Positions 1 through 18,070 of a stretch of 64,000 nucleotides of DNA are shown piece by piece. This stretch comes from Flavobacteriaceae bacterium LSUCC0859 (GTDB lineage: Bacteria; Bacteroidota; Bacteroidia; Flavobacteriales; Flavobacteriaceae), in assembly GCA_022239325.1 (NCBI GenBank), contig JAKOGP010000001.1:62001-126000 (forward strand), read 5' to 3'. The first letter of the stretch is position 1. Every line of letters begins with the position of its first letter. The position numbers and the translations under genes are program-made. A model generated the notes under the pieces. The model was given only the letters and a program-made list of their open reading frames with translations, was not told where the DNA came from and did not search any database.

Positions 1-272
1 TTGCAACTTTAGAAGAACTAAAATTAACCAGTTCGTTCTCTAAAAACACTTTAACTCTCAAAGAGGCATGTGCATACACTGGCATCTCCCAAAGCTACAT
101 GTACAAATTAACTGCTTCTTGTAAGATTCCTTATCACAATCCTTTTGGTAAAAAATTGTATTTCAACAAAAACGAGTTGGACAGGTGGCTTACATCCAAT
201 TCCGAAAATGAATCAATTAGAATTAATGAATCTGACCTTTGGGCAGTTAAAACCTTACAAAATGATATATAA
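1..272 (+). CDS. Excisionase-family HTH protein, 5' truncated
   Basis: An open frame runs in from the window edge (codon phase starts at base 3) and stops with TAA at 270-272. It contains a complete winged-helix segment of the excisionase/MerR-like HTH_17 type: LTLKEACAYTGIS, then SYMYKL, then a wing and KNELDRWL. Proteins of this family select insertion or excision sites, or regulate integrase genes, in phages, integrative elements and phage satellites. It lies just upstream of an unknown gene and a primase-helicase, which fits an int-xis-replication module. Only the C-terminal 89 residues are visible. The N-terminal part and any integrase lie outside the window. Confidence 0.7.
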   Translation, partial: ATLEELKLTSSFSKNTLTLKEACAYTGISQSYMYKLTASCKIPYHNPFGKKLYFNKNELDRWLTSNSENESIRINESDLWAVKTLQNDI

Positions 273-340
273 ATTAAGCCTTTACATAAAATATCGCAGT
301 AAATACTTTGATACTATTTCTAACCTTAATAAAAGATAAT

Positions 341-769
341 ATGCAAGAATTAGGAGTTGGAAAGTCAAGCGAGAAACATATACTAAACATGTTGGAGATT
401 ATTACTTCCTCACAGAAGGGTTGGTATAAAAAGGGATTCGAAAGTGTTGGAGGTCTTTCTAAGCGTATAGGCATAAGTGAAGACACAATATACTGCGTAT
501 TTATTGAGTTAATTAAGGTCGCTATACCACCAGAAATTAGTCTATCGGATATTGAAGAAGTGCTTAGACATATGATACAGGAGCATACTCATCCTTCAAA
601 GAAGCTAGAAACACCACAAGAACTTAGTGATCGTTTAAGGCTTACTATGGAGGCCATAGATCATATATCTTTTGGTGTATGGAGAATACTTTATGGCCTT
701 TTGTCAAATTCAGGTTGTGGAGTTTGGGAACCTAACCTAGATGCGTTTACAAACAATGACAAGGCGTAG
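341..769 (+). CDS. Hypothetical protein of mobile element
   Basis: This encodes 142 residues from the ATG at 341. An earlier start at 308 would add an 11-residue hydrophobic lead, but the bases before 341 (AAAAGATA) look more like a ribosome-binding region. No family is recognised. The segment GGLSKRIGISEDTIY could be a helix-turn-helix, which would suit a small regulator or replication accessory protein. Its stop codon (TAG, 767-769) directly abuts the ATG of the primase-helicase gene, so the two are probably translationally coupled. The gene belongs to the integrated element; its function is unknown. Confidence 0.6.
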   Translation: MQELGVGKSSEKHILNMLEIITSSQKGWYKKGFESVGGLSKRIGISEDTIYCVFIELIKVAIPPEISLSDIEEVLRHMIQEHTHPSKKLETPQELSDRLRLTMEAIDHISFGVWRILYGLLSNSGCGVWEPNLDAFTNNDKA

Positions 770-3700
770 ATGAACCATTTAGAGATTAAGTCCAGGTTCC
801 ATAACAAGATTGTTGTGGAGTCAGGCCCTCTTTTGGAGGCAGTAGACTATAATGAGAAGGTGTTGACTAAGATTAACCGTTGGTGGTCTGACGAAAACCC
901 TGGGGATGATCCAGACTTTGGTGTGATAGAATATCTATCCATGAATGAGGCTGTTACCTTAATTAATAATTTGGAAGGCCCCCTAACAAAAGATCAAGCA
1001 CCCGCTCTCCTTAAAGGCTTATATAAAGGAGGTACAGGAGGGGCTTTTCTATACAAAGCAGCAGCTTACCTGCCATGGGATGTAGATATAAAAAATACCG
1101 CTGAGAAGAAGGAGAATCTACCATTGTTAGATGGAAAAAATAACTCAGACGTATTTGATTACTTAAAAGGCATATCAGTATTTGCTGCTAGGTCTAATAG
1201 TGGATTAGGAATGTTTGGATACGTGAGAGTAGAAGGCATAGAAAACTTATTAGTTGGAGAAAAGAAACTGCATCACGAGATAGGAAAAGCTATTACAAGT
1301 AAAATGTCAGAGATGTGCTTTGAGGCCACGGGAATACTAGTGGACTTTGACCCAACTCAGTCAGTATTTAGAGTCATAAGAAATTTCCCCCCTCAAGAAA
1401 ATGAAGTTGTTATAAATGACAGACACTTGAATTTTAAAGTTACTGTCACTAAGGAAAAAATAGTTACATCCTTAGGAGTTCCCGCTCTCACTTACACAGG
1501 AAACTACTCAGGTCATCCGGGTACAATCAGGTATAAGTTCAATGAACAAAACAAAATAGAAGATATACTGCCAAAGCATGGATTTACGCATGCTAGCGGA
1601 AACAGGTGGGTTCACTTTACCTCTACCTCAGATTCAACAGGTCAAGTTAATGATAATAATACCTTTTGGAGCTATTCAAGCACGTTTGGTGAGGGACTTT
1701 ACTCACCTTTTGACTTAGTTAAAAAAGCAGAAGGACTTAGTTATAACGAATTAATTCGGCGATGCAAACAAGAAGGGTATGAAGACACTCCAATAGAGCC
1801 CTCTGAGATTGATTTAGCGGTTGAGAGACTTCACTTTGGTTACTCTGCTCCTCCAAGTGTTTTTAGCGTGTGTGACCCGCTTAAAAGACTTCCAGAGAAG
1901 GATAAGTATGAGATGCTAGATAGGTTGAACATCAGAAAGGAGGTTTTGTTGCTTGTATGCACATATCTAGAAGTTGTACCTCTTGAAATTCCATATGATC
2001 ACAGGCTTGAAATTGAAAACTACCTTGGGGATTCTTTTAAAGAGATAGAAGAGATTATATCTAGAGAACAAATGGTTTTGATATCAGCTGGTACAGGGAT
2101 AGGCAAGACAACGGCAGTAGTTGATTTTCTATTAAAACAAACGGACAAGAGAGGGATTTTCTTAGCGCCTTTACAAGTCATTGTGGAGCAAGTTTCAGAA
2201 GAAAACAATCTACCAGCGTTAATTGGAAATAGTTCTCCAAGTCTTCATTCAGAAGCCAAGAATGCCCCGTTAATTGTAGCAACGTATGAGCAAGCTATAA
2301 AGTACTTAGCCGATGACAAACAGCACTTTGACTATATAGTAATAGATGAAATTCATAACCTCGCACTCAGCCAGAGCTACAAACAAGAAATCCTAAGACC
2401 TCTCTATCATTTGATAAAAAAGACAACTGCCAAAGTAATTGGTCTTTCTGGCACAGTATCAAATGGCTTAGCCGTGTTAGGTTTCACTATCATAAATGTT
2501 ATTAAGAAGGATCAAAAGATGACATTAGTTAAGAGGCGGACTGCTAATAGATCTGGACACAATACAGCCATAAACCACATTAGGGAGTTCAAAGGCAAGA
2601 GATGTATTATTCGTTTAAACAACACTAATGATTTAGATTCCATAAAAGCTCAACTAGTAGATGAGGAGTTATTTAAGCCTGATGAAATATTAATACTCAA
2701 GTCTACCAAGCAAATAAAAGAGGGTAAAGAATTCAGAGATCTTGTAGAAAAAGGACGAATTGACAAAAAATTAAAGATAGTTCTTACCACCAGTTTGATA
2801 GACGAGGGTCTTAGCATAAGAGATGCACACTTTGATCATGTCGTTTTTATTGAGTGTAACAGCTTTACTCCCAGACCAGAACCAATTGCTCAAAACTTTG
2901 CTCGGGTGCGGAATCCTGGGCCTGATGTAGAGTATTTTTTATATACCAAGACTAACTCAAAGGGAGAATACTACGATGAAGTTGACAGCTTTAACTCTGC
3001 GCTAGCATTACTTGAGGAAAATAAACCAGAATCTAGAGGTCCGTATAAAAAGCATATACTCAGTAACAGTGATTACTACCTAATAGATAAATCAATCAAC
3101 AAGCCAAGATTGGCGTACGATATATCTCAAAATGCGTTTGGAAAGTTTTCCCCTTTCATGTTAGATAGGTATCTAAGGAATTATAACCTTAACGTTGTAT
3201 TCGATGACTCTTTTACCGAGATAAATTCTGATTCTGCGTTCAAAAAGGCTTATGACAAGTCTCGCTTACAAGCTCTATACCACGTATGGACAAATGAGTG
3301 GCCTACCATAGCTTTTGTAATAAATAGTTCCTCTCAGGATCCTGACCTTAGGTGTGAAGAGGATTATGAACCAACGGGGTATAATGAGGAATGCGTGAGC
3401 TTTGTCTATCAAAATATTTCCATATTTGAGAAGTATTTTAAAATACAAATAAAGCTAAGGCTTTTGGGGGTTAATCCAGACCGCTATATTGTTAAGGACA
3501 ATAGGCTTGCTACTATCAAGCAACTAAATAACGATATATTCGCTTTAGAAACCAAGGCAGTTATAGAGAACCCCAAGTCAAAGGAAGACTATAAAGCAAA
3601 GGGAAAACTTGAAGCAGCTATAAGTTGTTTAATAGATCTGGAGACGTGTACAAAAGAAGAAGTCTTAAGAGCGTTTGACGACGGTGTGGTGCTAAATAAA

Positions 3701-3826
3701 CCTAGTATTGATGTTGCTGTAAAAGTTCTTAAGGAGTACACAGACGTAACTTACAACAAAAGAGCAAAACGTTTTAAGGTTAAGAAAAAAATGAAAGACC
3801 CTGATGAAATAAATCTAATATTCTAA
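770..3826 (+). CDS. Primase-helicase replication protein of mobile element
   Basis: This 1018-aa protein appears to join two activities. Residues about 90-210 resemble the BT4734-like/VirE_N domain related to archaeo-eukaryotic primases: D104-V-D106, the SNSG loop near 142-145, then VDFD at 191-194 and R201. Residues about 425-730 form a superfamily 2 helicase core with Walker A GTGIGKTT (441-448), Walker B DEIH (526-529), a GLSGT motif III and a motif VI-like QNFARVR near 710. The last 280 residues are unassigned. Such fusions start replication of plasmids, phages and phage satellites. The gene is coupled to the upstream small gene and is followed by iteron-like repeats, which suggests a self-contained rep-ori unit. 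The helicase call is firm. The primase call rests on motif resemblance only. Confidence 0.75.
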   Translation: MNHLEIKSRFHNKIVVESGPLLEAVDYNEKVLTKINRWWSDENPGDDPDFGVIEYLSMNEAVTLINNLEGPLTKDQAPALLKGLYKGGTGGAFLYKAAAYLPWDVDIKNTAEKKENLPLLDGKNNSDVFDYLKGISVFAARSNSGLGMFGYVRVEGIENLLVGEKKLHHEIGKAITSKMSEMCFEATGILVDFDPTQSVFRVIRNFPPQENEVVINDRHLNFKVTVTKEKIVTSLGVPALTYTGNYSGHPGTIRYKFNEQNKIEDILPKHGFTHASGNRWVHFTSTSDSTGQVNDNNTFWSYSSTFGEGLYSPFDLVKKAEGLSYNELIRRCKQEGYEDTPIEPSEIDLAVERLHFGYSAPPSVFSVCDPLKRLPEKDKYEMLDRLNIRKEVLLLVCTYLEVVPLEIPYDHRLEIENYLGDSFKEIEEIISREQMVLISAGTGIGKTTAVVDFLLKQTDKRGIFLAPLQVIVEQVSEENNLPALIGNSSPSLHSEAKNAPLIVATYEQAIKYLADDKQHFDYIVIDEIHNLALSQSYKQEILRPLYHLIKKTTAKVIGLSGTVSNGLAVLGFTIINVIKKDQKMTLVKRRTANRSGHNTAINHIREFKGKRCIIRLNNTNDLDSIKAQLVDEELFKPDEILILKSTKQIKEGKEFRDLVEKGRIDKKLKIVLTTSLIDEGLSIRDAHFDHVVFIECNSFTPRPEPIAQNFARVRNPGPDVEYFLYTKTNSKGEYYDEVDSFNSALALLEENKPESRGPYKKHILSNSDYYLIDKSINKPRLAYDISQNAFGKFSPFMLDRYLRNYNLNVVFDDSFTEINSDSAFKKAYDKSRLQALYHVWTNEWPTIAFVINSSSQDPDLRCEEDYEPTGYNEECVSFVYQNISIFEKYFKIQIKLRLLGVNPDRYIVKDNRLATIKQLNNDIFALETKAVIENPKSKEDYKAKGKLEAAISCLIDLETCTKEEVLRAFDDGVVLNKPSIDVAVKVLKEYTDVTYNKRAKRFKVKKKMKDPDEINLIF

Positions 3827-3832
3827 ACATGG

Positions 3833-3872
3833 AAGGATACATTTTGCTCTACGGTAACTTGTATCCTTTTTA
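3833..3872 (+). terminator. Possible terminator after primase-helicase
   Basis: A perfect 9-bp inverted repeat (AAGGATACA at 3833-3841, TGTATCCTT at 3860-3868) is followed by a short T-run, 7 bases past the stop codon. The 18-base loop is large, so termination may be weak. The loop also contains GGTAACTT, the reverse complement of the core of the downstream direct repeats. Confidence 0.35.
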
Positions 3873-3902
3873 GTTGTGCTTTTTCTTTTCTTCTAAGGAT
3901 CT

Positions 3903-3924
3903 AAAAAAACAAAAGTTACCCACT
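3903..3924 (+). repeat. Iteron-like direct repeat, copy 1
   Basis: A seven-A run, then CAAAAGTTACCCACT, matches the copy at 3973-3994 base for base over 22 positions. The distance between copies is exactly 70 bp, close to seven helical turns. It may bind the neighbouring replication protein. Confidence 0.6.
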
Positions 3925-3972
3925 TTTTGTTGAATTCATTGGGTTTCAAGCGTTTTTTAGCTATTTTATTTA

Positions 3973-3994
3973 AAAAAAACAAAAGTTACCCACT
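3973..3994 (+). repeat. Iteron-like direct repeat, copy 2
   Basis: This is the second identical 22-bp copy of the repeat at 3903-3924. A partial third match (AAAAGTTAA) occurs near 4048 and an inverted core (GGTAACTT) at 3853-3860, so the binding array may hold degenerate members. Confidence 0.6.
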
Positions 3995-4272
3995 CTGCTT
4001 TTAGGGTCATACATATTGCTGTTAATTAACACCTTATGTTATTATATAAAAGTTAAGTAGTTTTCTTACTTAGAGCGATGAGATAACCCCTGCCCTAAAC
4101 TTTTGATGCTCTAACAAAGCAGGGACTTATTTAGTATTCAAACAATTATTAGTCAACAACTTAAATCCATTTTTTTAATTGCATAAGTATAAAATAACTG
4201 TTCATTATCTAAGCCTTTAGAATAAATAAGTGCTATTTCTTAAAAAAAGTACTCATTATTACTTTAACTATT

Positions 4273-4302
4273 TTGGCATCTGAGTATTAACTTTTATTTT
4301 TG
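4273..4302 (+). promoter_or_regulatory. Bacteroidota promoter of sprF-adhesin operon
   Basis: A -33 element TTG (4273-4275) and a -7 element TATTTTTG (4295-4302, matching TAnnTTTG) are separated by 19 bases. This is the spacing expected for the Bacteroidota primary sigma factor. The predicted transcript starts roughly 20 bases before the TTG start codon at 4328. Confidence 0.55.
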
Positions 4303-4327
4303 GTAATTATTTCAAATATCCCCAATC

Positions 4328-5263
4328 TTGAAACTACATGTTTCTTTCTTAAGCATTTCAATGCTTTTTCTTTTTCAATTGGTGCAAGCCCAGCAGCAGC
4401 CTAATTTCCTGTTTTTTGAACAGAATATGGGCATTTACAATCCGGCCTTTACTGGAAGTGAAGGGGCTTTTGTAGGCCTAGGATACCGAGCAGCCTGGTC
4501 TGGTATTGAAGACGCACCCAGAGCCACTTCATTGGTGTACAATACCAAAGAAAAAAATAGGGCCTCTTGGGGTTTTAGCTATTTATCAGATAAAGTCTAT
4601 GTAGAAAACCAAGGAATGGTATCTGTAGACTATGGCTATAAACTCCAATTAAGCACTAATACCAATTTACACCTAGGAATAAAAGCGGGGGCTAACTTTA
4701 ATAATATAGACCTGGACAGGCTCAATAGAATCACCCAAGAGAGTAACGAATCACTTGGCAATGTTCAAAACTATCTAAACCCACTATTAGGTATAGGAGC
4801 CTATTTAAAAGCAAAGACCTACTTCTTAGGACTCTCAGTGCCTAATTTTTTAAACACCAAAAGATTTAAAGAAGTCAATGGCATACAAGCTACTGCTACA
4901 GACAAACCCCATTTGTATGCCAGTGGTGGTTTTGCATGGAAGCTAAACAACACCATTTCATTAGAGCCTGCTTTTTTGTACAGAATGGTTAGCGACGCAC
5001 CAAACCAAGTCACAGCTATTGGTAAGATAAACTTCAAGGATCAATTGCAAGTGGGAGTGGGCGTTAGTAATAATGATTATATCAGTGCCATGCTAGCTTT
5101 TAAAGGCATGAAGCTCTTTGACTTTGGCTACGGCTATGAGATGGGACAAAGAACCAGCAGTACAGCCCTTAGAGCCAATACTCATGAAATATTTATGAGA
5201 TTCAAGTTTGGTGGTCAAATAAAGGCTTCTTTAGAACAAAAAAGTAATTCTATGAAATTGTAA
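4328..5263 (+). CDS. PorP/SprF family T9SS outer membrane protein
   Basis: A 311-aa protein with a signal peptide (hydrophobic core about residues 8-18, cleavage after QLVQA). The opening FFEQNMGIYNPAFTGSEG matches the 'NPAxTG' start of the PorP/SprF family. These outer-membrane beta-barrel proteins pair with type IX secretion substrates that carry type B sorting domains, such as SprF with the adhesin SprB, and help place them on the cell surface. The next gene, 8 bp downstream, encodes exactly such a substrate. A TTG start at 4328 is chosen because it gives a complete signal peptide with a Lys-containing n-region; the first in-frame ATG (4361) would remove most of it. The family call is firm; a PorP versus SprF role cannot be told apart. 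Confidence 0.88.
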   Translation: MKLHVSFLSISMLFLFQLVQAQQQPNFLFFEQNMGIYNPAFTGSEGAFVGLGYRAAWSGIEDAPRATSLVYNTKEKNRASWGFSYLSDKVYVENQGMVSVDYGYKLQLSTNTNLHLGIKAGANFNNIDLDRLNRITQESNESLGNVQNYLNPLLGIGAYLKAKTYFLGLSVPNFLNTKRFKEVNGIQATATDKPHLYASGGFAWKLNNTISLEPAFLYRMVSDAPNQVTAIGKINFKDQLQVGVGVSNNDYISAMLAFKGMKLFDFGYGYEMGQRTSSTALRANTHEIFMRFKFGGQIKASLEQKSNSMKL

Positions 5264-5271
5264 TTATTAAG

Positions 5272-8200
5272 ATGAATTATTTTTCAAAAATACTATTAAT
5301 GTTGTTTCTTTTGAAAAGCATTACTATATACTCTCAAAATAAATTGATTTATGGTTATAGTTTTAGCTCGGGCACCACATATAGTAGTAGTTCAATGCAA
5401 TACATAGATTGGGGTAATTTTAGAAACCATTACGACGAATCATATACATATACTAAACTTACTTTTAAAGGTTCAAGAGACGCTTCCGGAGTAATTTTAA
5501 CAAACTCTAGCGAGATTAAATTATTGATGAAAGCCTTGAAAAACAATTCAAGTTATAACAGTGGTTTATGGTATGTTGGAAATTGTGGTTTTGGCCCTGA
5601 GTTAAGTTATAATCAAGTCACCTGTTCTTGTGCAACTCAATATTCCATTAGACCTCAAATAGGGAACACAAATTGGGGGGGGATTAGTGGAGCCACTTGT
5701 TCTGCATCTTCACAGAATCTAATAGTTGAGGTTGAATATAATGGTCCTACTGCGACATATACAAATCTACAATCAGGCGGAACAATTTCATCTTCATCTT
5801 CCGTTTTTTGTACTTCAAGCACAGACCCAGATGCTTTTACATCTACTGCTGCTGCAAATGGTGGCTCTGGTACTTTTACATATCAGTGGCAAAAAAGTAC
5901 AGATGGTACAAACTTCACAAATATTGATGGAGCCACTTCATTAACCTACAATTCTGAAACAATAACACAAACCACCTATTTTAGAAGAAAAGCGACTAAT
6001 TCTCTAACGCTTTATTCTAATGTACTCACTTTAGAGAAATTTGAAATTACTTCTCACCCAAGCACTACAGATCAAAACTTAATTCCAAGTGCTTCGCCAA
6101 CAAACTTAAGTGTTTCAGTAAGCAATATTTCAGGAGCTACTTATCAGTGGTACAAAAATGCGTCTAATAGCAACACGGGCGGTACACTTATTGGTGGAGC
6201 TACCAGTGCCACTTTCACACCACCTACAGATACTGTTTCTAAATGGTATTACTATGTAGAAGCCTCAAAAGGTGGCTGTAGTATTACCTCTAATGTGTCT
6301 GGTCTTGTAAATGTAGGCAATCCAATAAGTGTTATTCCACAAGCAACTGACCCTTGGAAACCACTTATCAAGCTAGCCAATTTTGATCCGAATGATGATC
6401 AGCAAGCAGTGAAAGATACTGACTTGGTTGGAGATGCTACTAACGCCATGCTTGAAACCCAAAAAGCAACTTACAATTTTAGCTCAGGCGCTTCCAATGA
6501 TGAGGTGTATTACTTCAGGGCTCGAATGGGAGCGAGTCATTCTAGAGGTAAACTTGGAACGTACTTTTACTTGGCTCTAGATAAAGACAATGATTATATA
6601 GCCGATGTTTTTGTTGAAGCCAATGTTAAAAATAATACGCCTTATGTAGCTTTTCATATATCTGACCCTGATGCTGCAGGCACAGGACCATCTAATACAG
6701 GCTGGGAGAATAGTCCGAACAATGACAATATTGAAAGAGAGCTTAGCTCCAGAGATGCTTTTATAAAAGCTTACAGCGCTTCTACAGACTTAGATAATGA
6801 TGAGACAGACACTTGGATAGAATTTGCATTCACAGAAGAATCTCTAAAGAGTTTTGTGTCAGATGCACTGGGTGCTTCAATTGATGGAGATAGTATGTTT
6901 GCTATTTATACCTTTACCTCCACCTCTCAAACAGCCAATGGAGATATTGGCGGTATTAATGATAAGACAGCAGATCTTACAAAGACCTGGGAAGAATTAG
7001 GAATTATTATAAATGGCTCTTTAAATGAGATTAGTACTAATGCAATATTAACACCAGTTATAAATACAGGAACTTTTTCTACTACTACCCCAACAATTAC
7101 AGGAACATGGGGAAGTGATAAGGAAGGTACAGATGCTCTAACTGTTGCTTTAAATGGAGTTACTTACACATCTTCTGGATCTGACCTTAGTGTAGATGGT
7201 TATTCATGGTCACTCACTGTTCCATCTGCACTTTCTGCAGGAACTAGCTATACAGTATCTGCCACCACTACAAGAGGCTCAGAGTCTAAAACAGCCACAG
7301 GAACCATTTATATTCAAGACAACGATGCCACTCTAAGCGCTCTTACCCTTAGCGATTTAACTTTATCTCCTTCTTTTTCAAGTGGGACTTATAGTTATTC
7401 TGCAAGCGCATCGAGCACACTTAACAGTACTGATTTAGTGGCTACCTTAAATTCAGTGTCTAGCACTCTTTCAATAGACGGGGTTGTCCAAAGCTCAAGT
7501 GTTAGTGTAACCAATGCTTTAGCGTTTGGGACCAATTCTATTACTATTACTGTTTTAGCTGAAAATGGAGTAAATAGCAATACTTACCAAATAGATATCT
7601 TAAAACAAATAGATCCAATAATAGTGGTTAATGACAATACCACTAGAGAACCTATAGCAGAGATAACAGGAACTATTAGTGCCGCTCCTGCCCAAAGCGG
7701 AAACTTTAACGTATCCTTACCTGAGGCTCCCTTATCTGATGTAGTTATTACTCTTGTGGTTTCGGATAATACAGAAGCTACTATTAGTCCTAGTACATTA
7801 ACCTTTACATCTGGAAACTATAGTACACCACAAACCGTAACTTTAACGGGTATAGATGATACTGAAAATGATTCACTAAGAGATGGTCCACAATCCTTTA
7901 CAGTAACTGGAACAGTGACTTCATCTGATCCAGCATACAACGGTGTTATTATAAGTCCCATTGGCTTTACGAATTTAGATGGAGACCCACCAGGAATTTC
8001 AGTTGAATTAACAGGCCCTACAATAAGTGAGTCTGGTAATAGTATTACAGCAAATTTCTCTTTGCTATCTACATTAACTTCAAATGATACTCAAGTAGAT
8101 TTACCACTTACATTAAATGATGGATCAGAGGCAAGTTTTAGTAATAGTAGTGTGGTGACTAGTGCCACTATAAGCTTCACAAATACTCAAACAACCACAA

Positions 8201-11200
8201 GTATTATAATCTATGGCGTAGATGACTCCCTTTCAGATGGTACGCAGAGCGTGACACTAGTTACTGGAGACCCATCATCTACAGTGGGTACAGCAGATAC
8301 TGGATATGATGCTTTAGATGCTAGTGATGTGGCAGATCTATCATTTAGTGTAACAGACAATGAGTTTGTAAGTGATATTTATACAGATTTTGGAGGATAC
8401 TGGAGCAGTGGTATTTCTTCAATAAGTTCTACTAAGCCAAATAACAATCATGATCTTTTAGGATTTACATTTGGAGGTACTACTTATAGCACAGGAGTAA
8501 ATGATGGCGTTTTAACTACTAACAGTGTTACATTTACTCCTGGTGAGTTTAGAGCATTACCGATAAACTTATTGCCAAATACTTATAAGAAATCCTATTA
8601 CGTTACCCTAGGAAACACCTTAGACGGAAGTGCAGAAACCGTTCAATCCCCTACTAATAACTTTCCAGCCTATCCTTCAAAAACCAAATTGGCTGAATAC
8701 TTAACTGATGGAGTAAATGGGTTAAATCTAGGAACGGGATTTGCTAATATACCTTCTGGTTCTAGATTAGAGTTTAATATAAATGCTATTGAAAACACAA
8801 ACATTGGTGACGGGGAACCAGACTTTTTAGTGACACAAATTGCTGTACCTGGCAATAGTAAATTAGATGAGTTTTGGTTTGAAGATGTCAATGGCAATCA
8901 GGTTGGTAATAAAGTAATCATCAATCTATCTCTTCAAGAAGTTCTAGGCGTTTGGAGAACAGATCGATTTACACTCGATGGCGAGTCTGAATCTAAATTA
9001 ATTGACAGAGATAGAGATATTCGATTTAAAGCTTTTGAGTTAAGTGAGTTTGGTGTCACTAGCTCAAATAGCGCAAGTATTAAGAAATTAGTTTATATAC
9101 TCTCTGGAGCATCAGACCCTGCGTTTATAGCTTATAATGTGCCAACAGTTAGTATGCCAACAAAGCTATCTAAATCTGCAGGCTCTTCAACTTATAAATA
9201 CAACACCGTTTTAACAACACCAATAAGTATTCAAGTAAAAGATGCTTCTGATAATAATGTGACTCAAGCAGGTATTACTATTACCGCTGGGGTTCAATCA
9301 GGAACGGCTACTTTGTCAGGAACTCTCGAAGTGGAGACCGACGCCAACGGAGTAGCAACTTTTACAGATTTAACAATAAACGGAACAGGAGACCAAGAAT
9401 TAAAGTTTACTGCACCAGGTTTAGATACAGTAACCACAACGCTTAGTTTTAGCAGAATCACTACGACTATGTCTGGCTTCCCAGACTTTACGGTAAATAC
9501 GCTTCAAGAGCCTTTTGCACTTACACCGCCAACGACAAATTCTACGGCAGATATTATTTATAGCTCCACTAATACTGCAGTAGCTACGGTAGATGCTTCT
9601 ACAGGCTCTGTAACTGTAGTTGGAGCAGGAACCACCTCTATTACGGCCTCTGTTTTACAAAATGACTATTATACAGTAGGAACTATCACGGCCACTATGA
9701 CGGTTATAAAAGCAGAGCCAACCATTATAGATTTCACCGATATTACCAAAACCTTTGGAGATGATGATTTTACTTTAACAGGAACAAGTAGTAGTACAGG
9801 AGCTATTTCATACACTGTTTCCGATACAACGGTTGCTACAGTGAGTGGAAATACTATTACCATTGTAGGAGCAGGAACGACTTCTATTACCCTTACTCAG
9901 GCTTCGGATGCTAATTACAATTCAGCTACGGCTACTATTACCTTAACGGTCAATAAAGCCACGCCTTCTTATACGGTAACTGATGTCACTAAAACCTATG
10001 ACGATCCAGCCTTTGATATTGACTCTTCAATGCTGGTATCTTCCTCTACAGGAACGCTTACCTTCACGGTATCTAATACTACGGTAGCTACTCTTACGGG
10101 AACCAATACGCTTAACATACAAGGTGCCGGCAGTACGGTGATTACAGCAGTGCAGTCTGCAACTAGCAATTACGAATCAGGCACCACTAGTTTTACCCTT
10201 AGCGTAGATAAGAACAATGCGGTTATTTTAAATAATTCTTCTAGTGCACTGTCAGATGTAACCCTTGTATTTAGTGATCCTTCATTTACTAAAACAGCTA
10301 CTTCTAGTAGCACAGGAGCCTTTACTTTTACAAGTAGTGACACAGATGTTATTGCATTAAGTACTACTGCCACTACTACCACTAGTAAAACGGTGAGTCA
10401 TACCATAGCAGGTGCAGGAACCAGTATTATTACTGTAAGCCAAGCGGCCGATGCTAATTACAATGCAGCTACTGTGAGTTACACGGTAACAGTTACTAAG
10501 GCGAACCCTAATTTATCTGCCTTGTCAGATATTACCAAAACCTATGGCGCTGCAGACGACACGGTGGTAAATACCTTAAGTACCACAACGGCCATTCAGT
10601 ACAACTCTTCTAACCCGTCTGTGGTTCAGATTGCTTCAACTGAGGTAGGCTCAGATACGCAAACAGCTACCCTAAGCTTTACTGGAGCAGGAACAGCTAT
10701 TGTAACGGCTACGCTAAGTGAGACGGCCAATTATGAGTCTGCTACCACAAGCTTTACCGTTACAGTAAATAAAGCTACGCCAACACTCTCTGGCTTTGTA
10801 GATATTACCAAAACCTATGGAGATGCAGACTTTAGTTTAGTTCAACCTACTTCTACCTCAGGGGGAGGGTTTACCTACGACTCTTCTAATACTGCTACGG
10901 CTACTATTTCTGGAGATACGGTAAGTATATCTCACTCAGGAGACGTTATTATAACAGCCACTCAGGCAGCAAATGCTAATTATGAGTCAGGAACCATATC
11001 CCTTACCCTTACGATTAATAAAGCCTCTCAGTCTATTAATGTAGACCCACTACCTAGTACTAAGCCATTAAAAGACTTTACTACTATTCCACTCACTGCA
11101 ACGAGTAGTTCAGGTAACCCTGTGAGCGTCACACTGGCCAGTGGAAGTGCAGCCACCCTCTCAGGGACTAGTATTTTTGGAAATAGCACAGTATCTAATG

Positions 11201-13785
11201 GCGCTACTTGTTTAACTAGTGGGCCTTTATGGTTCACTCCAACTACTTCAGGCTACATTACGCAAATTGAATTAAATGCATTTGGAACTGGGGAAACAGC
11301 TTCATTAGCTATAAAATCAGATTTTTGTGGTACTCCCTCATTACTTGGCACATCCAATAATATTACTATGGTAGATGGCTGGAATATATGGACATTTTCA
11401 AGTCCAGTTCAAGTGACAGCGAACACTACTTATTACATTACATCAGACGATGCAAGTGCATGCTTGGGTGTTAGATGGGCGCAATCTGGTGACGATCCAA
11501 CAATTGGTAAAGTGGATAGAGATACATGTACTAATTATAACTCCGATGTAGCGTCAAAAATCACAGTTGTAAATAGCTTGAATCAATCAGGCAATTATGA
11601 ATTAACCTCCATTGGAACTACTGGAATCATTACAGTAACCTTCTCAGTAGATGCCACTTCAAGGTACAATGCGGCAAGCGTATCGCTTTCAATGGATGTT
11701 GTAAAAACAGCGCAGAGTATAAGCTATGCCCCTGTCTTACCTACTGAGGTGACTTATAGCGACGGACTCACGGTTCCACTAACAGCATTAGCCTCTTCAG
11801 GCTTAGCAGTGAGCTATAATGTAATTAGTGGTCCAGCCATTCTAACAGGTAATAGTCTAACCATTAGCCAAACAGGAGTGGTTGAAGTTGAGGCTACCCA
11901 AGTAGGTAATGCTGCCTTTAATCCAGCGCCTATAGATACTAAATTCATTACAGTAGAACCAGGTACGGTAACACTAAGCAACTTTAGTGTTCCAATGAAG
12001 GTAGACTCTGATCCAGACTTTACCATTACAGCGCCTACAAGCACTGTGCCAGGTACTATTACATATAGCTCTAGTAATTTATCTGTAGCTAATATGAACG
12101 GAAGTACAGTAGAGATTATAGCTGCTGGAACTACGAGTATTACCGCTACCCAACTGGCTATAACAAACAAATACAACAGTGCTAGTATCACCACTAATTT
12201 TGTGGTAGCAGTAGGAGATACTGATGGAGACGGTGTATTAGACCCAGTAGATTTATGTCCTAACACTATAGCAGGCGCTAGCGTAGACGCAAATGGTTGT
12301 GCGCCTTACCAAAAAGATAGTGACTCAGATGGTGTTATGGACGATGTGGATAATTGTGTGACCACTGCCAATGCAGACCAAGCGGACACGGACGGTGACG
12401 GCGTTGGAGATGTGTGTGACAATGCGCCCAACACGCCTAATGCAGATCAGGCAGATACCGATGGAGACGGGACGCCAGATGCAGAGGATGATGATGATGA
12501 CAATGACGGGGTGACAGATTCTAACGATGACTTCCCAACCAATCCAAACGAGACCACAGATACCGATGGTGATGGACAGGGAGACAATGCAGATAATGAT
12601 ATAGATAATGACGGAGTTATAAACACTTTGGATAATTGTATTTACACTCCTAATACAGATCAGTTAGACACCGACGCAGACGGCGCAGGAGACGCTTGTG
12701 ATAGCGATGATGATAACGATGGATACAGTGACCAAGATGAAATAGCTTGTGGCTCTGATCCATTAGATGCTAGTTCTAAGCCATTAGACACCGACGTAGA
12801 TGGCATAGCCGATTGTATCGATACAGATGATGATGGCGATGGATATGAGGATACGAATGATGCCTTCCCATTAGATTCTAACGAGTGGTTAGACACAGAT
12901 GCAGACGGCACTGGAAACAACGCAGACACGGATGATGATAATGATGGTCAAAGCGACGAAGAGGAAGTTTTTTGTGGCACAAATCCATTAGATGCTAAGA
13001 GCTTCTCTGGAGACATTGATAATGATGGTATTACCAACTGTAGAGACCAGGACAATGACAATGATGGGGTGTTAGATATCAGTGACGCCTTCCCATTAGA
13101 TCCAACTGAATGGACAGACACAGACGCAGACGGCATAGGAAACAATGCTGATGAGGACGACGATAATGACGGCTTCACAGACCTAGACGAGCTAGAATGT
13201 AATAGTGATCCGTTAGATTTAGAAGACTTACCAGGAGATTTAGACCAGGATGGTATACCGGATTGTAAGGACACTGACATAGACGGAGATGGATGCATTA
13301 ACACCCAGGACGTCTTCCCAAGAGACCCTAGTGAATGTGAAGATACAGACGGAGATGGACTAGGAGATAATATGGATATTGACTCAGATAATGACGGAGT
13401 GCCAAATAGCTTAGACGCTTTCCCATTAGATCCAAATGAAGCTTATGACATAGATGGAGATGGTATAGGAGACAATGCAGATACAGATAATAATAACGAT
13501 GGCTTTAACGACAGTGACTTATTAGTCTCTGGAGTGCTTACACCTAATTCAAGTGGATTAGAAGCCACCTGGAAGATTATAAACCTAGACAAGTATCCAA
13601 ACGCTAGAGTGACTGTATACAACAAAAACGGACAAGAGGTATTCTCAGCCCAAGGGTATAGAAACGATTGGAGAGGAACCTACAAGAATAGTTCAAACCC
13701 ACTTCCAGCAGCTTCTTACTATTATGTAGTAGAACTAAACACAGGGGAAGAACCTATTACTGGTTGGATGTATATTACGTATTAA
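5272..13785 (+). CDS. Giant T9SS-secreted adhesin with type B sorting domain
   Basis: A 2837-aa surface protein. In order it has: a signal peptide (1-21); a Cys-containing N-terminal region and Ig/PKD-like segments (to about 350); a cadherin-like beta-sandwich domain (about 684-779); Calx-beta-like repeats (about 783-1035); an unassigned region (about 1038-1288); a BIG1-like Ig domain (about 1290-1395); nine tandem MBG/BIG2-like repeats of about 85-100 aa (about 1397-2313), the seventh carrying an inserted Cys-bearing domain; acidic thrombospondin type 3 repeats that probably bind calcium (about 2316-2750); and an 85-residue gliding-motility-type C-terminal domain with GxVTVYNKNGQ-like and YYYVVELNTG elements. 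It is presumably exported by T9SS with help from the adjacent SprF-like protein, and may serve in adhesion or gliding. Confidence 0.9.
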   Translation: MNYFSKILLMLFLLKSITIYSQNKLIYGYSFSSGTTYSSSSMQYIDWGNFRNHYDESYTYTKLTFKGSRDASGVILTNSSEIKLLMKALKNNSSYNSGLWYVGNCGFGPELSYNQVTCSCATQYSIRPQIGNTNWGGISGATCSASSQNLIVEVEYNGPTATYTNLQSGGTISSSSSVFCTSSTDPDAFTSTAAANGGSGTFTYQWQKSTDGTNFTNIDGATSLTYNSETITQTTYFRRKATNSLTLYSNVLTLEKFEITSHPSTTDQNLIPSASPTNLSVSVSNISGATYQWYKNASNSNTGGTLIGGATSATFTPPTDTVSKWYYYVEASKGGCSITSNVSGLVNVGNPISVIPQATDPWKPLIKLANFDPNDDQQAVKDTDLVGDATNAMLETQKATYNFSSGASNDEVYYFRARMGASHSRGKLGTYFYLALDKDNDYIADVFVEANVKNNTPYVAFHISDPDAAGTGPSNTGWENSPNNDNIERELSSRDAFIKAYSASTDLDNDETDTWIEFAFTEESLKSFVSDALGASIDGDSMFAIYTFTSTSQTANGDIGGINDKTADLTKTWEELGIIINGSLNEISTNAILTPVINTGTFSTTTPTITGTWGSDKEGTDALTVALNGVTYTSSGSDLSVDGYSWSLTVPSALSAGTSYTVSATTTRGSESKTATGTIYIQDNDATLSALTLSDLTLSPSFSSGTYSYSASASSTLNSTDLVATLNSVSSTLSIDGVVQSSSVSVTNALAFGTNSITITVLAENGVNSNTYQIDILKQIDPIIVVNDNTTREPIAEITGTISAAPAQSGNFNVSLPEAPLSDVVITLVVSDNTEATISPSTLTFTSGNYSTPQTVTLTGIDDTENDSLRDGPQSFTVTGTVTSSDPAYNGVIISPIGFTNLDGDPPGISVELTGPTISESGNSITANFSLLSTLTSNDTQVDLPLTLNDGSEASFSNSSVVTSATISFTNTQTTTSIIIYGVDDSLSDGTQSVTLVTGDPSSTVGTADTGYDALDASDVADLSFSVTDNEFVSDIYTDFGGYWSSGISSISSTKPNNNHDLLGFTFGGTTYSTGVNDGVLTTNSVTFTPGEFRALPINLLPNTYKKSYYVTLGNTLDGSAETVQSPTNNFPAYPSKTKLAEYLTDGVNGLNLGTGFANIPSGSRLEFNINAIENTNIGDGEPDFLVTQIAVPGNSKLDEFWFEDVNGNQVGNKVIINLSLQEVLGVWRTDRFTLDGESESKLIDRDRDIRFKAFELSEFGVTSSNSASIKKLVYILSGASDPAFIAYNVPTVSMPTKLSKSAGSSTYKYNTVLTTPISIQVKDASDNNVTQAGITITAGVQSGTATLSGTLEVETDANGVATFTDLTINGTGDQELKFTAPGLDTVTTTLSFSRITTTMSGFPDFTVNTLQEPFALTPPTTNSTADIIYSSTNTAVATVDASTGSVTVVGAGTTSITASVLQNDYYTVGTITATMTVIKAEPTIIDFTDITKTFGDDDFTLTGTSSSTGAISYTVSDTTVATVSGNTITIVGAGTTSITLTQASDANYNSATATITLTVNKATPSYTVTDVTKTYDDPAFDIDSSMLVSSSTGTLTFTVSNTTVATLTGTNTLNIQGAGSTVITAVQSATSNYESGTTSFTLSVDKNNAVILNNSSSALSDVTLVFSDPSFTKTATSSSTGAFTFTSSDTDVIALSTTATTTTSKTVSHTIAGAGTSIITVSQAADANYNAATVSYTVTVTKANPNLSALSDITKTYGAADDTVVNTLSTTTAIQYNSSNPSVVQIASTEVGSDTQTATLSFTGAGTAIVTATLSETANYESATTSFTVTVNKATPTLSGFVDITKTYGDADFSLVQPTSTSGGGFTYDSSNTATATISGDTVSISHSGDVIITATQAANANYESGTISLTLTINKASQSINVDPLPSTKPLKDFTTIPLTATSSSGNPVSVTLASGSAATLSGTSIFGNSTVSNGATCLTSGPLWFTPTTSGYITQIELNAFGTGETASLAIKSDFCGTPSLLGTSNNITMVDGWNIWTFSSPVQVTANTTYYITSDDASACLGVRWAQSGDDPTIGKVDRDTCTNYNSDVASKITVVNSLNQSGNYELTSIGTTGIITVTFSVDATSRYNAASVSLSMDVVKTAQSISYAPVLPTEVTYSDGLTVPLTALASSGLAVSYNVISGPAILTGNSLTISQTGVVEVEATQVGNAAFNPAPIDTKFITVEPGTVTLSNFSVPMKVDSDPDFTITAPTSTVPGTITYSSSNLSVANMNGSTVEIIAAGTTSITATQLAITNKYNSASITTNFVVAVGDTDGDGVLDPVDLCPNTIAGASVDANGCAPYQKDSDSDGVMDDVDNCVTTANADQADTDGDGVGDVCDNAPNTPNADQADTDGDGTPDAEDDDDDNDGVTDSNDDFPTNPNETTDTDGDGQGDNADNDIDNDGVINTLDNCIYTPNTDQLDTDADGAGDACDSDDDNDGYSDQDEIACGSDPLDASSKPLDTDVDGIADCIDTDDDGDGYEDTNDAFPLDSNEWLDTDADGTGNNADTDDDNDGQSDEEEVFCGTNPLDAKSFSGDIDNDGITNCRDQDNDNDGVLDISDAFPLDPTEWTDTDADGIGNNADEDDDNDGFTDLDELECNSDPLDLEDLPGDLDQDGIPDCKDTDIDGDGCINTQDVFPRDPSECEDTDGDGLGDNMDIDSDNDGVPNSLDAFPLDPNEAYDIDGDGIGDNADTDNNNDGFNDSDLLVSGVLTPNSSGLEATWKIINLDKYPNARVTVYNKNGQEVFSAQGYRNDWRGTYKNSSNPLPAASYYYVVELNTGEEPITGWMYITY
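9457..12212 (+). repeat. Nine tandem MBG/Ig-like repeat units in adhesin
   Basis: Within the adhesin, units recur with the pattern 'DITKTYGD...F...STGA.TYT.SN..VATV.G....I.GAGTT.IT.TQA..ANY.SAT...TLTVNKA.P'. Nine can be read; units 2-6 are most alike and units 7-9 more diverged. The repeats are also alike at DNA level, so assembly collapse or copy-number change is possible here. Confidence 0.75.
11170..11596 (+). other. Foreign domain inserted in adhesin repeat 7
   Basis: Repeat unit 7 reads normally up to ATLSGTS. It is then interrupted by about 140 residues rich in aromatic residues and with four Cys (CLTSG, FCGTP, ACLGV, TCTNY), and resumes at NYELTSIGTTGIITVTF. The other eight units contain no Cys. 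The insert resembles a beta-sandwich carbohydrate- or surface-binding module, but no specific family is recognised. Confidence 0.5.
12216..13520 (+). repeat. Thrombospondin type 3 calcium-binding repeats
   Basis: The encoded protein repeats D-x-D-x-D-G motifs (DTDGDG, DNDNDG, DIDGDG) interleaved with DxCP/NC elements and 'DAFPLDP.E' linkers, as in thrombospondin type 3 repeats of flavobacterial surface proteins. In these families Asp side chains bind calcium and stiffen a stalk. Here the stalk would lie between the Ig-like repeats and the sorting domain. Confidence 0.8.
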
Positions 13786-13807
13786 GAGAAATGTTATATA
13801 AAACAAG

Positions 13808-13840
13808 AAACCTTCAGCTTAACAGTTGGAGGTTTTTTGT
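13808..13840 (+). terminator. Intrinsic terminator after adhesin gene
   Basis: A 9-bp stem (AAACCTTCA at 13808-13816 with TGGAGGTTT at 13827-13835, one G-T pair) is followed by a T-run. It begins 23 bases after the adhesin stop codon. Confidence 0.7.
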
Positions 13841-14167
13841 TTAAAATAATAGACAACTTTTAAGTAGATAGACTCAGGCTTATATATAGATATCACAACC
13901 AACGTCAAAAAAGAAAACCGTTTCTATAAAACCCACCCCTCACTTTAAATCAAGTGATGCACTGAGACTTTTTGGGATTTTATATAGGCATGGAGAAGCG
14001 ACCTTTAATACAATCCGTTGGCAATATGTCCTACATATGTCCTAAAAAAAAGGTTTTAGTTTCCCTTGATAGGACAAAAACAACACTATTGTAGTACTAT
14101 ATTGATACAATTAGTACTTAAGTAACTGTATATCAACATTTATAAACTTCTGTATTGGAAAGTAGTC
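13841..14167. other. Non-coding region between adhesin and DUF2237 gene
   Basis: No gene is seen in these roughly 330 bases. The region contains two direct copies of ATATGTCCT (14024-14032 and 14035-14043), 11 bp apart, and an inverted AGGACA at 14071-14076, which could be a small operator. Otherwise it is AT-rich without recognisable RNA structure. Confidence 0.4.
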
Positions 14168-14524
14168 TCATAGTTTGTATTCCAACAACATCTCAAAGCT
14201 CACATAATCCAGACACTTTATGTGGCTTGCTTCTAAGACTACCATGGGTGCCATACCCGCCAAATACGCTTGTTTCCATCTAGAAACACACAGGCACCAC
14301 TTATCCCCTGCTTTTAATCCTGGAAACTGATACTCTGGCCTTGGCGTTTGGAGGTCATTACCTACAGATTTGGTATAGGCAAGAAATTCATCTGTCATAA
14401 TAGCGCAAACAGTATGGGTACCTATATCTCTGTGGTCTGTGTTACAACAACCATCTCTGAATGCACCTGTCATTGGTTGGGTGCTGCAAGTTTCTAGAGG
14501 AGTTCCTAATACATTATTAGCCAT
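14168..14524 (-). CDS. DUF2237 family protein
   Basis: A 118-aa protein matching the DUF2237 family across its whole length: NVLGTPLETCSTQPMTGAFRDG near the start, CCNTDHRDIGTHTVCAIMT, EFLAYTKSVGNDLQTPRPEY, FPGLKAGDKWCLCVSRW, and MAPMVVLEASH. The conserved Cys and His residues suggest a metal- or redox-related role, but the family has no established function. The ATG at 14524 is chosen over an upstream one (14569) because family members begin at MA-x-NVLG. It is a monocistronic gene between the adhesin and the lipoprotein pair. Confidence 0.85.
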   Translation of the reverse strand: MANNVLGTPLETCSTQPMTGAFRDGCCNTDHRDIGTHTVCAIMTDEFLAYTKSVGNDLQTPRPEYQFPGLKAGDKWCLCVSRWKQAYLAGMAPMVVLEASHIKCLDYVSFEMLLEYKL

Positions 14525-14696
14525 ATTGTTTTTTTTAAGGTAAAGCAAAGGTACTTTGAATGAAAACAAGAAGAGAAAAAACGCTGAGAAAAAACTTTAA
14601 GTTCATTGAAATTTGAATTTAAAAGAAATATTTAGCCTACATGTTAAAGACCAAGGATGACAAAGTTGTTAGGCTAGGGGAATCAGATTTTTTCAA

Positions 14697-16340
14697 TTAA
14701 TTTTTAAAATAAGAATCTAATTTTGCTTCAACGGAAGCAGGAAGCGTGTATAGTGGCTCACCAGTTTCGGGATTCAAAACATTCGGATTGTTAAAGTTTG
14801 GGTCCCAATAAATCATAAATGCTTCTGCAAAGAATTCTTGTGTATTCTGCATTCCATAATTTGACACAAAAACACCACTATTATATAACGCATTCCATTC
14901 ATTTTGGTCTATTGAGGGAATTCCTATTTGTGATCTAAACTGCCATACGTGACCCATTTCGTGTGTAATTAAATCTCTTGTCTTTTTTCCTGGGTAAAGA
15001 AATTTAATTACACCATTTCCACCTGTAGCTGCGGCAAAATATTCCCTTCCTCCTAGTAAGTATATTTCCTCTAAATATTTAGCAGCGTCTGTCCCTTTCA
15101 TTCCTTTTACCATTTCATCAAATCCCCCTTCACCACCGTTATAAGGATTTAATTGTGAGATTATCTCATCCTCATTTTCATACAAGTTAACTTCATATTT
15201 TATTTTAATATCTTTAAAAATGTCCGTATCTAACTCAATATTATAAACCATTGAATCCATTTTACTATACGCTAAATCTGAAAGACCTTCACCACCATAT
15301 ATTGTATGTCTAAGCTTACCAGATCTCCAAGCTATATCATCGTAGTAGGGAGTCCATAAAGGTTCATCTCCAAATCCAATAATTTTTTGTTTAACAGCTA
15401 TTAATTCTTTTCCTTGAATGTGTTTGGAATAGTCTGCTATGTATTCATATAAGGGTTGGCCGTTTGTAAATGATTCAAAATAATTTAAAATAATACTCGT
15501 ACTTAATCCCGAAGGCGTAATTACTTGTGTTTTAAATACAGGAAGCGATGCGTGAGTAACCACATAATAGTATCCATTATCTAGATAAACGACATTATTT
15601 TCTATATCTAATTCAATAATTTTATAACTATTTGGTTCAGGATTGTATATCTTATGTCTTGAACCTTCAACACTAATAACAGGCACAGTGATTATTGTTG
15701 GAGACTCTGAGAATATGGGAACACCGTATTCGTCTTGACCTATAAGATCATCATAAATATTCAATGTAACTGTTTGAGTTACTGGGTTATAATCTGAAGC
15801 GCTTGTAATTAGAGAAAAAGTCGCAGAAATAGTTTTAGCCTCACTCACTAATATTTGAATTTCTAACTCAGCAGACTCTATTGCTCCTGTCCAGCCTACA
15901 AACTCCCATCCTTCAGAAGGCACTGCAGTTAGTTTAACAGTAGTTCCTGAATCATAATCTGTTGTCCTACCTGAATTAACTATCTCTTCTAACACTTCTC
16001 CTTCTCCTTCAATATTTACTGTTAGAGGATATTTCTTCTTTTCAAAATTTGCTGTTAGAGTTGCGTTTGTGCTCACTGTGATTGTTCTAGTGGCATTAGT
16101 ATTGCCATCAGACCAATTTTTAAACACATATTCTCCTTGTGGAGTTGCTGTAACACTTACTGTCTGACCTAATTCATACTCACCTCCTGTATTAGATACA
16201 ATTCCTCCCTCTCCTGCAGATAAGGTAATAGTGTATTTAGCTATAGGTACAGGTGGGGGGGGGACAGGTGTTGAAGTCTCATCTGAAGAACAGGAGAGCA
16301 CTAAAGAAAAGATAATAAATAGGAATAATAACTTTTTCAT
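14697..16340 (-). CDS. InlB-repeat lipoprotein with zinc metallopeptidase-like domain
   Basis: A 547-aa lipoprotein. The signal peptide ends in a lipobox (LVLSCSS, Cys17). Residues about 34-180 hold two InlB/'bacterial repeat' domains (AGEGG...GQTVSVTATP...FKNWSDG; then EGEGEV...VKLTAVPSEGWEFVGWTG). The C-terminal half contains DLITHEMGHVWQF: H460, E461 and H464 form an HExxH zinc motif, and EFFAEAF supplies a likely third ligand, E506. This layout recalls anthrax lethal factor-like (ATLF) zincins. It is probably an outer-membrane-anchored peptidase. It is second in an operon with a paralogue 23 bp upstream that shares the repeats but has another C-terminal domain. Substrate unknown. Confidence 0.75.
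   Translation of the reverse strand: MKKLLFLFIIFSLVLSCSSDETSTPVPPPPVPIAKYTITLSAGEGGIVSNTGGEYELGQTVSVTATPQGEYVFKNWSDGNTNATRTITVSTNATLTANFEKKKYPLTVNIEGEGEVLEEIVNSGRTTDYDSGTTVKLTAVPSEGWEFVGWTGAIESAELEIQILVSEAKTISATFSLITSASDYNPVTQTVTLNIYDDLIGQDEYGVPIFSESPTIITVPVISVEGSRHKIYNPEPNSYKIIELDIENNVVYLDNGYYYVVTHASLPVFKTQVITPSGLSTSIILNYFESFTNGQPLYEYIADYSKHIQGKELIAVKQKIIGFGDEPLWTPYYDDIAWRSGKLRHTIYGGEGLSDLAYSKMDSMVYNIELDTDIFKDIKIKYEVNLYENEDEIISQLNPYNGGEGGFDEMVKGMKGTDAAKYLEEIYLLGGREYFAAATGGNGVIKFLYPGKKTRDLITHEMGHVWQFRSQIGIPSIDQNEWNALYNSGVFVSNYGMQNTQEFFAEAFMIYWDPNFNNPNVLNPETGEPLYTLPASVEAKLDSYFKN
15813..16240 (-). repeat. InlB-repeat coding block, copy in zincin lipoprotein
   Basis: About 430 bp coding for two InlB-type repeats. 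It closely resembles 17273-17702 in the neighbouring gene, with many stretches identical and substitutions mostly scattered. It marks a partial gene duplication, or recombination that kept the N-terminal half and exchanged the C-terminal half. Confidence 0.75.
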
Positions 16341-16363
16341 AATGTTAAGTTTTGGTTTAAATC

Positions 16364-17800: not shown

Positions 17801-17813
17801 GATTTTGAAATAA

Positions 17814-17844
17814 AATTTAAAAAAACCCTCCATTACAGAGGGTT
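17814..17844 (-). terminator. Terminator-like leader hairpin before lipoprotein operon
   Basis: On the minus strand, AACCCTC, a 7-base loop and GAGGGTT (stem arms at 17838-17844 and 17824-17830) are followed by an unbroken T-run. This is the form of an intrinsic terminator. It sits about 25 bases upstream of the lipoprotein ATG (17800), with no gene before it on that strand. It would therefore stop leader transcription rather than end an operon, which points to attenuation. Confidence 0.55.
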
Positions 17845-18070
17845 CGATTTGGAATAGAAAAGATCTTGCTTCATTAACTAAACTTTCAATGAAATCTCTT
17901 TAGCAATGATATAAATAATACAATGTTGTGAAAAATGGTGTAATCGCTTTTCTCGCTTTAAGAATGTTTTTACTTGATTTACGAATCTAATCTTTAGGAG
18001 TTTCATAAGCTCAAATGAAAAATGTATATTTAAATTCGCTATTTATTTTACCCAAATAATACCATCTAAA

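Follow-up and report, generated by a model that had tools for sequence, protein, structure and literature searches.

The window analyzed here is a 64,000-nt stretch of Flavobacteriaceae bacterium LSUCC0859 (G000:C4:62001-126000; the genome is 2.17 Mb in 12 contigs), and its left part lies within an element integrated at the 3' end of a housekeeping gene identified by its sequence as mnmE (trmE). The 54.5 kb upstream of the window were also examined, and coordinates below 1 are C4 positions minus 62000. A sequence-only reading of positions 1-3826 had described an excisionase-like gene, a small gene and a primase-helicase gene in the order of phage-inducible chromosomal islands (PICIs), with the integrase side outside the window. 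All three genes are real, an integrase and attachment (att) repeats were found within 2 kb upstream (the limit set beforehand was ~15 kb), and the order integrase, AlpA-like gene, pri-rep, candidate origin holds once the upstream DNA is added. The proposed extent was too short. Because the right-hand att copy lies at 14144-14161, the element extends far beyond 3826, mostly as adhesin cargo; it spans about 16.1 kb (-1989 to 14161), starts ~2 kb before the window, and reads attL, integrase, overlapping gene, HTH_17 gene, small gene, primase-helicase, AT-rich gap, SprF and adhesin cargo, attR (Table 1).

Table 1. Features of the element at mnmE, in window coordinates
Feature	Position	Strand	Remarks
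attL core	-1989..-1972		AAACTTCTGTATTGGAAA; last codons of mnmE
Left-arm copies of TTGATACAAT	-1858 and -1827		upstream of window
Tyrosine integrase, 374 amino acids (aa)	-1814..-690		upstream of window; PF00589; adjoins attL
Integrase-overlapping gene	-697..-149		upstream of window; 8-nt overlap with integrase
HTH_17 excisionase/AlpA-like gene, 97 aa	-21..272 (1..272 in window)	+	PF12728, phrog_66
Small gene	341..769	+	open reading frame (ORF) 308-769, between excisionase-like and primase-helicase genes; position of up1 in phage-inducible chromosomal minimalist islands (PICMIs)
Replication protein, 1018 aa	770..3826	+	probable archaeo-eukaryotic primase (AEP; N-terminal) and superfamily 2 (SF2) helicase (C-terminal)
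Hairpin then T run, terminator-like	3833..3873	+	3' of primase-helicase
Two exact 22-nt repeats, AAAAAAACAAAAGTTACCCACT, candidate origin	3903-3924, 3973-3994	.	in gap of 27.9% GC
PorP/SprF-family partner of the type IX secretion system (T9SS), 311 aa	4328..5263	+	TIGR03519 2.9e-51, over cut-off; PF11751 3.7e-49
Giant adhesin, 2837 aa	5272..13785	+	TSP3 repeats PF02412; type-B sorting domain PF13585, TIGR04131 4.6e-12, over cut-off
Right arm, non-coding	13877..14143	+	TTGATACAATTA at 14102-14113; same word in left arm
attR core	14144..14161	+	AAACTTCTGTATTGGAAA, exact repeat of attL (mnmE 3' end); 3' of 2837-aa gene

The locus is almost certainly a site-specific integrative element with its own tyrosine integrase, as judged from an integrase gene beside att repeats and an unoccupied site in a relative. 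The 18-nt core leaves the end of mnmE intact upon insertion; when the right region was Markov-shuffled 300 times, the longest word in common was 16 nt. The word TTGATACAATTA is present just inside both ends, and an equally long shared word arose in 7 of 1000 shuffles. Every reading frame of the backbone is intact.

The first 21 nt of the excisionase-like gene lie before the window; its product matches HTH_17 (3.3e-13) and the excisionase family phrog_66 (3e-7), with a weak match to Phage_AlpA. ORF 308-769 encodes 153 aa if read from a TTG at 308 and 142 aa from the ATG at 341, which is the likelier start; it has no recognized family. The primase-helicase ORF begins right after the preceding stop codon (TAG followed directly by ATG). 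The second half of its product is an SF2 helicase (PF00270, 1.2e-13; phrog_16 DNA helicase, 2.4e-17), in agreement with the sequence-only reading. The first half has no Pfam match; in BFVD, a modest AlphaFold model (pLDDT 66) matched VirE_N-type phage primases at about 1e-4. DxD, RSxSGxG...H and FDxxQxxxR motifs in this half are invariant among six homologues and are probably those of AEP primases; the primase label is probable rather than proven. NrS-1 primase-polymerase was the top Foldseek match to the model in the PDB, below significance; a second fold comparison with the PDB gave middling matches of common arrangements alone (Z < 6), and a PDB sequence search gave no match.

The AT-rich gap that follows has ordinary folding (z -0.8), and its 22-nt repeats make a candidate replication origin that fits by position only. 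No known RNA family was found in window 1-16500.

The 9.5 kb of cargo inside the att repeats hold a T9SS type-B substrate together with its PorP/SprF partner, as recognized by TIGR04131 and TIGR03519, respectively, and the host genome encodes gldM. Among three mnmE-site adhesins, the TSP3 and sorting part is 61-80% identical and the N-terminal parts diverge. Many SprF and TSP3-adhesin paralogues also lie elsewhere in this genome (C4:415, C4:616499, C5:468206, C7:232280-235557, C8:212981, C10:70538-81225 and C11:1-1816); several are at contig ends, which suggests that they are assembly-breaking repeats and that adhesin genes may recombine with one another. Most of these paralogues were not seen beside an integrase of the element's type, and this genome has no second integrase of that type. 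Because of the paralogues elsewhere and the single such integrase, the cargo was probably drawn from, or is exchanging with, a host pool.

Use of the mnmE site and relatives of the backbone

In one congener (G011), mnmE and its neighbor, a DUF2237-like gene, are convergent and about 130 bp apart, with neither an insert nor an adhesin between them. None of the 11 other genomes of the genus has the primase-helicase. The locus is thus not fixed in relatives, in line with the sequence-only reading. The window also carries two related lipoproteins and an AraC-type regulator (14697-19180), flanked by the DUF2237-like gene and an acylase-like gene; since these flanking genes are nearly adjacent in G011, the set has the look of a second insertion next to the element.

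Other congeners carry different DNA at the site. In G008, three copies of the att sequence are spread over 18.8 kb, together with a different integrase of about 30% identity, a TSP3 adhesin of 795 aa and a sulfatase/metabolic block. The last copy closes a 270-nt stretch that shares 79% identity, over 289 nt, with the right end of our element (window 13877-14164). The copies lie at 152, 5131 and 18929 of L058 (G008:C5) and delimit a 5.0-kb unit of integrase and adhesin and a 13.8-kb sulfatase/metabolic unit without an integrase, as if two units had been stacked at one att site. G001 has SprF and a 1050-aa adhesin on a contig with an att copy followed by a G011-type spacer; its element ends could not be joined because its mnmE ends another contig. 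Genes akin to the 14697-19180 set adjoin the G001 adhesin, and part of the right end of our element (window 13880-14001) recurs at 87-90% identity in mnmE-site DNA of G008 and G001 (L058 13944-14010 and L061 357-459). On a G003 contig (G003:C18, L152/L153), the genes after mnmE are, in order, one for a related integrase, one that overlaps the integrase gene by 4 nt, and an xis sharing 50% identity with that of the element. Another replication module comes next, the island also holds Septu (PtuA/PtuB) and type I restriction-modification genes, and an att-like copy lies 24 kb farther along. This contig may be from another organism because it has a second, divergent mnmE of that bin. G010 has 5.5 kb at the site, without an integrase or a second att copy. 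By these comparisons the 3' end of mnmE is an integration hotspot, and the integration kit, the replication module and the cargo seem to be traded independently of one another.

Matches to the primase-helicase were found in six of 397 genomes of the family, including its own, and three of these were partial. The two full-length relatives, in other genera, have the same gene order. G024 encodes an integrase (426 aa), a 241-aa protein, an HTH protein (93 aa), a 126-aa protein and a primase-helicase of 1018 aa, followed by two DUF5681-like genes, and its element is bounded by a 15-bp repeat and the tmRNA gene (ssrA site). The G389 element, between 30-bp repeats at tRNA-Leu, encodes the corresponding proteins of 431, 164, 90, 129 and 1005 aa with different cargo. 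Both have inner repeats near their two ends. The two small genes hold a common position in these elements, with no detectable sequence likeness. Because G024 and G389 repeat the order, we regard it as a five-gene backbone with varied sites and cargo. The two DUF5681-like proteins of G024 were considered as small terminases and rejected: PHROGs names no terminase among their matches, a homologue in a named phage is not beside one, and the structure model, of low confidence, is a pair of helices.

A profile search of 395 genomes across the order found no further member at 1e-20, a genome contig scan gave matches at the helicase level only, and no match came from scanning viral sequences with either protein, that of the window or that of G024, by itself. 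In IMG/VR, two contigs carry a primase-helicase gene among phage-like early genes, and one, L100, has it beside portal, protease, HK97-type capsid and connector genes. Its likeness to ordinary phages starts abruptly at 4242, so that L100 could be a recombinant phage, a capsid-forming satellite or a chimeric assembly.

The junction at 4242 falls on the last 7 nt of an imperfect palindrome of ~50 nt (GYTAACACCCGTATAAAAAAACGTTTTAATGTTTTTTATAC..GTTAGCA), reminiscent of integron attC sites, that occurs once per contig just 5' of portal in a set of IMG/VR contigs (L157, L159, L160, L163-L167, L169-L173, L181, L182, L184-L186, L190, and L100 at 4242) whose capsids are related to that of Cellulophaga phage phi39:1. 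Downstream of the palindrome the DNA is well conserved, and upstream it varies in many contigs; the palindrome may be a cassette-exchange site.

Proposed replication and transfer of the element

We consider it probable, with some reserve, that the element works like a phage satellite. Infection by a helper phage is the most likely trigger that would switch on the HTH_17 protein; this protein together with the integrase, and probably also the product of the integrase-overlapping gene, would excise a circle. The primase-helicase would copy the circle from a nearby origin, for which the 22-nt repeats are the candidate. Exit of the DNA in helper-supplied particles is proposed because the element encodes neither capsid nor relaxase. 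In the host, the adhesin would be exported by the resident T9SS with the element's own SprF-type partner and would alter attachment, gliding or phage access. We infer excision, induction, replication and particle transfer because the gene order corresponds one-to-one with that of PICMIs and follows the PICI order. Replication after excision is likely; movement by a phage is favored only slightly, and helper-phage carriage is plausible but unproven.

The phage part of the sequence-only reading fared less well than its integrase, att repeats and gene order, which stand. Several results weigh against it. No packaging, capsid-redirecting or phage-interference gene was recognized among the element genes, nor was terS in Pfam and PHROGs scans. 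A terminase profile run against this genome matched PhoH only, and for that reason there is no resident helper at hand. The primase-helicase has only partial, helicase-level matches among named phages, no repeats like those of the candidate origin lie 3' of the primase in G024 or G389, and neither an attP circle nor a virion copy has been seen. The absence of capsid, portal and connector genes between the att repeats also separates the element from capsid-forming PICIs.

The strongest alternative is an integrative island copied as a plasmid-like circle and moved by a conjugative helper acting on a cryptic oriT, or by generalized transduction, transformation or vesicles. An example is found among Gammaproteobacteria, in the trmE-site islands that travel with IncC plasmids: SGI1 and MGIVchHai6 share the target gene, and tandem insertions are frequent there too (PMC7449626). 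A weak match between the helicase part and CyRepA1, a plasmid protein, and the lack of any phage gene outside the backbone point the same way. Yet family scans of the element proteins found no relaxase, which an integrative and conjugative element or a relaxase-bearing integrative mobilizable element would carry, and general family scans recognized no MobI-like gene, although no MobI model was run. Phage-like contigs contain relatives of the primase-helicase; among 72,556 plasmids the matches were partial ones to the helicase, with none at full length, and the gene order is that of phage satellites. We regard transfer by such another route as possible but the less likely account.

It is improbable that the element is a degraded prophage, reduced to its integration and replication genes. 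The relatives in phage-like contigs, one beside head genes, would suit such an origin, but the head-gene likeness of that contig starts abruptly and the contig may be recombinant or chimeric; moreover, the same compact backbone recurs, free of structural genes, in two independent elements from other genera, and all backbone reading frames here are intact. More improbable still is a small satellite of ~6 kb ending after the primase-helicase beside pre-existing host adhesin genes, which would match PICMIs in size and the commonness of SprF-adhesin pairs elsewhere in the genus and in this genome, since the sole good att copy is 3' of the adhesin with none between primase and SprF, the DNA 5' of attR is common to another mnmE-site element (G008), and the empty-site congener has no adhesin here.

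Satellite-like behavior thus remains the reading that we prefer, and a broader version of it is speculative and, on present evidence, doubtful: a Bacteroidota lineage of phage satellites that has a primase-helicase of its own and an interchangeable integration kit, and that ferries giant T9SS adhesins and SprF between flavobacteria. We found no phage satellite described in flavobacteria in the open-access literature, a coverage that leaves out subscription papers and preprints. If the element is a phage satellite, it would offer a compact test system in Bacteroidota, and if the lineage exists, phage parasites would reshape the host surface for attachment, gliding and phage recognition. Whatever the transfer route, a complete T9SS adhesin and SprF unit is shown here as cargo of an integrative element, and congeners use the same att site for elements with adhesins, sulfatase-type metabolic genes or phage defense. 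A mobile SprF-adhesin unit is a direct route by which flavobacteria could swap surface proteins.

Comparison with known systems

The closest likeness in gene order is to the PICMIs of Vibrionaceae, in which excision requires the integrase, the overlapping gene and alpA, and full replication requires the primase (PMC10803314). Both have an integrase, an integrase-overlapping or contiguous gene, an AlpA-type gene (PF05930 or PF12728), a small gene and a primase, and in both a tyrosine integrase inserts at one gene and no capsid-remodeling gene is present. PICMIs, however, lie beside fis, whereas our element lies at mnmE; their primase has DUF3987 and DUF5906, neither of which appeared in Pfam scans of the element; and they measure about 6 kb, compared with 16.1 kb including the adhesin cargo here, in another phylum. 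Because of the site and the primase family, the element is not filed as a PICMI.

Gram-negative PICIs (PMC6092414) similarly have an integrase at one end, an AlpA-like regulator, and pri-rep followed by a possible origin, with accessory genes at the 3' end and a similar size. The element repeats the order of integrase, regulator and pri-rep, with a candidate for the downstream origin. It differs in that no terS, cos or interference gene was found and in a replication protein unlike PICI models. PICIs are further marked by induction, interference and particle transfer that depend on a phage. We do not claim membership of PICIs or PICMIs for it.

SGI1 and MGIVchHai6 (PMC7449626) share with the element the 3' end of trmE (mnmE) as target, tandem and mixed insertions and variable cargo. 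Islands of that type have MobI or relaxase genes and AcaCD-type control by IncA/IncC plasmids. They are set apart by the lack of a recognized relaxase in the element, by a different backbone order and replication protein, and by the absence of a known conjugative helper. The cargo itself resembles SprB-SprF pairs of the T9SS, in which an adhesin with a type-B sorting domain adjoins a PorP/SprF protein; the difference is that here the att repeats of an integrative element enclose the pair.

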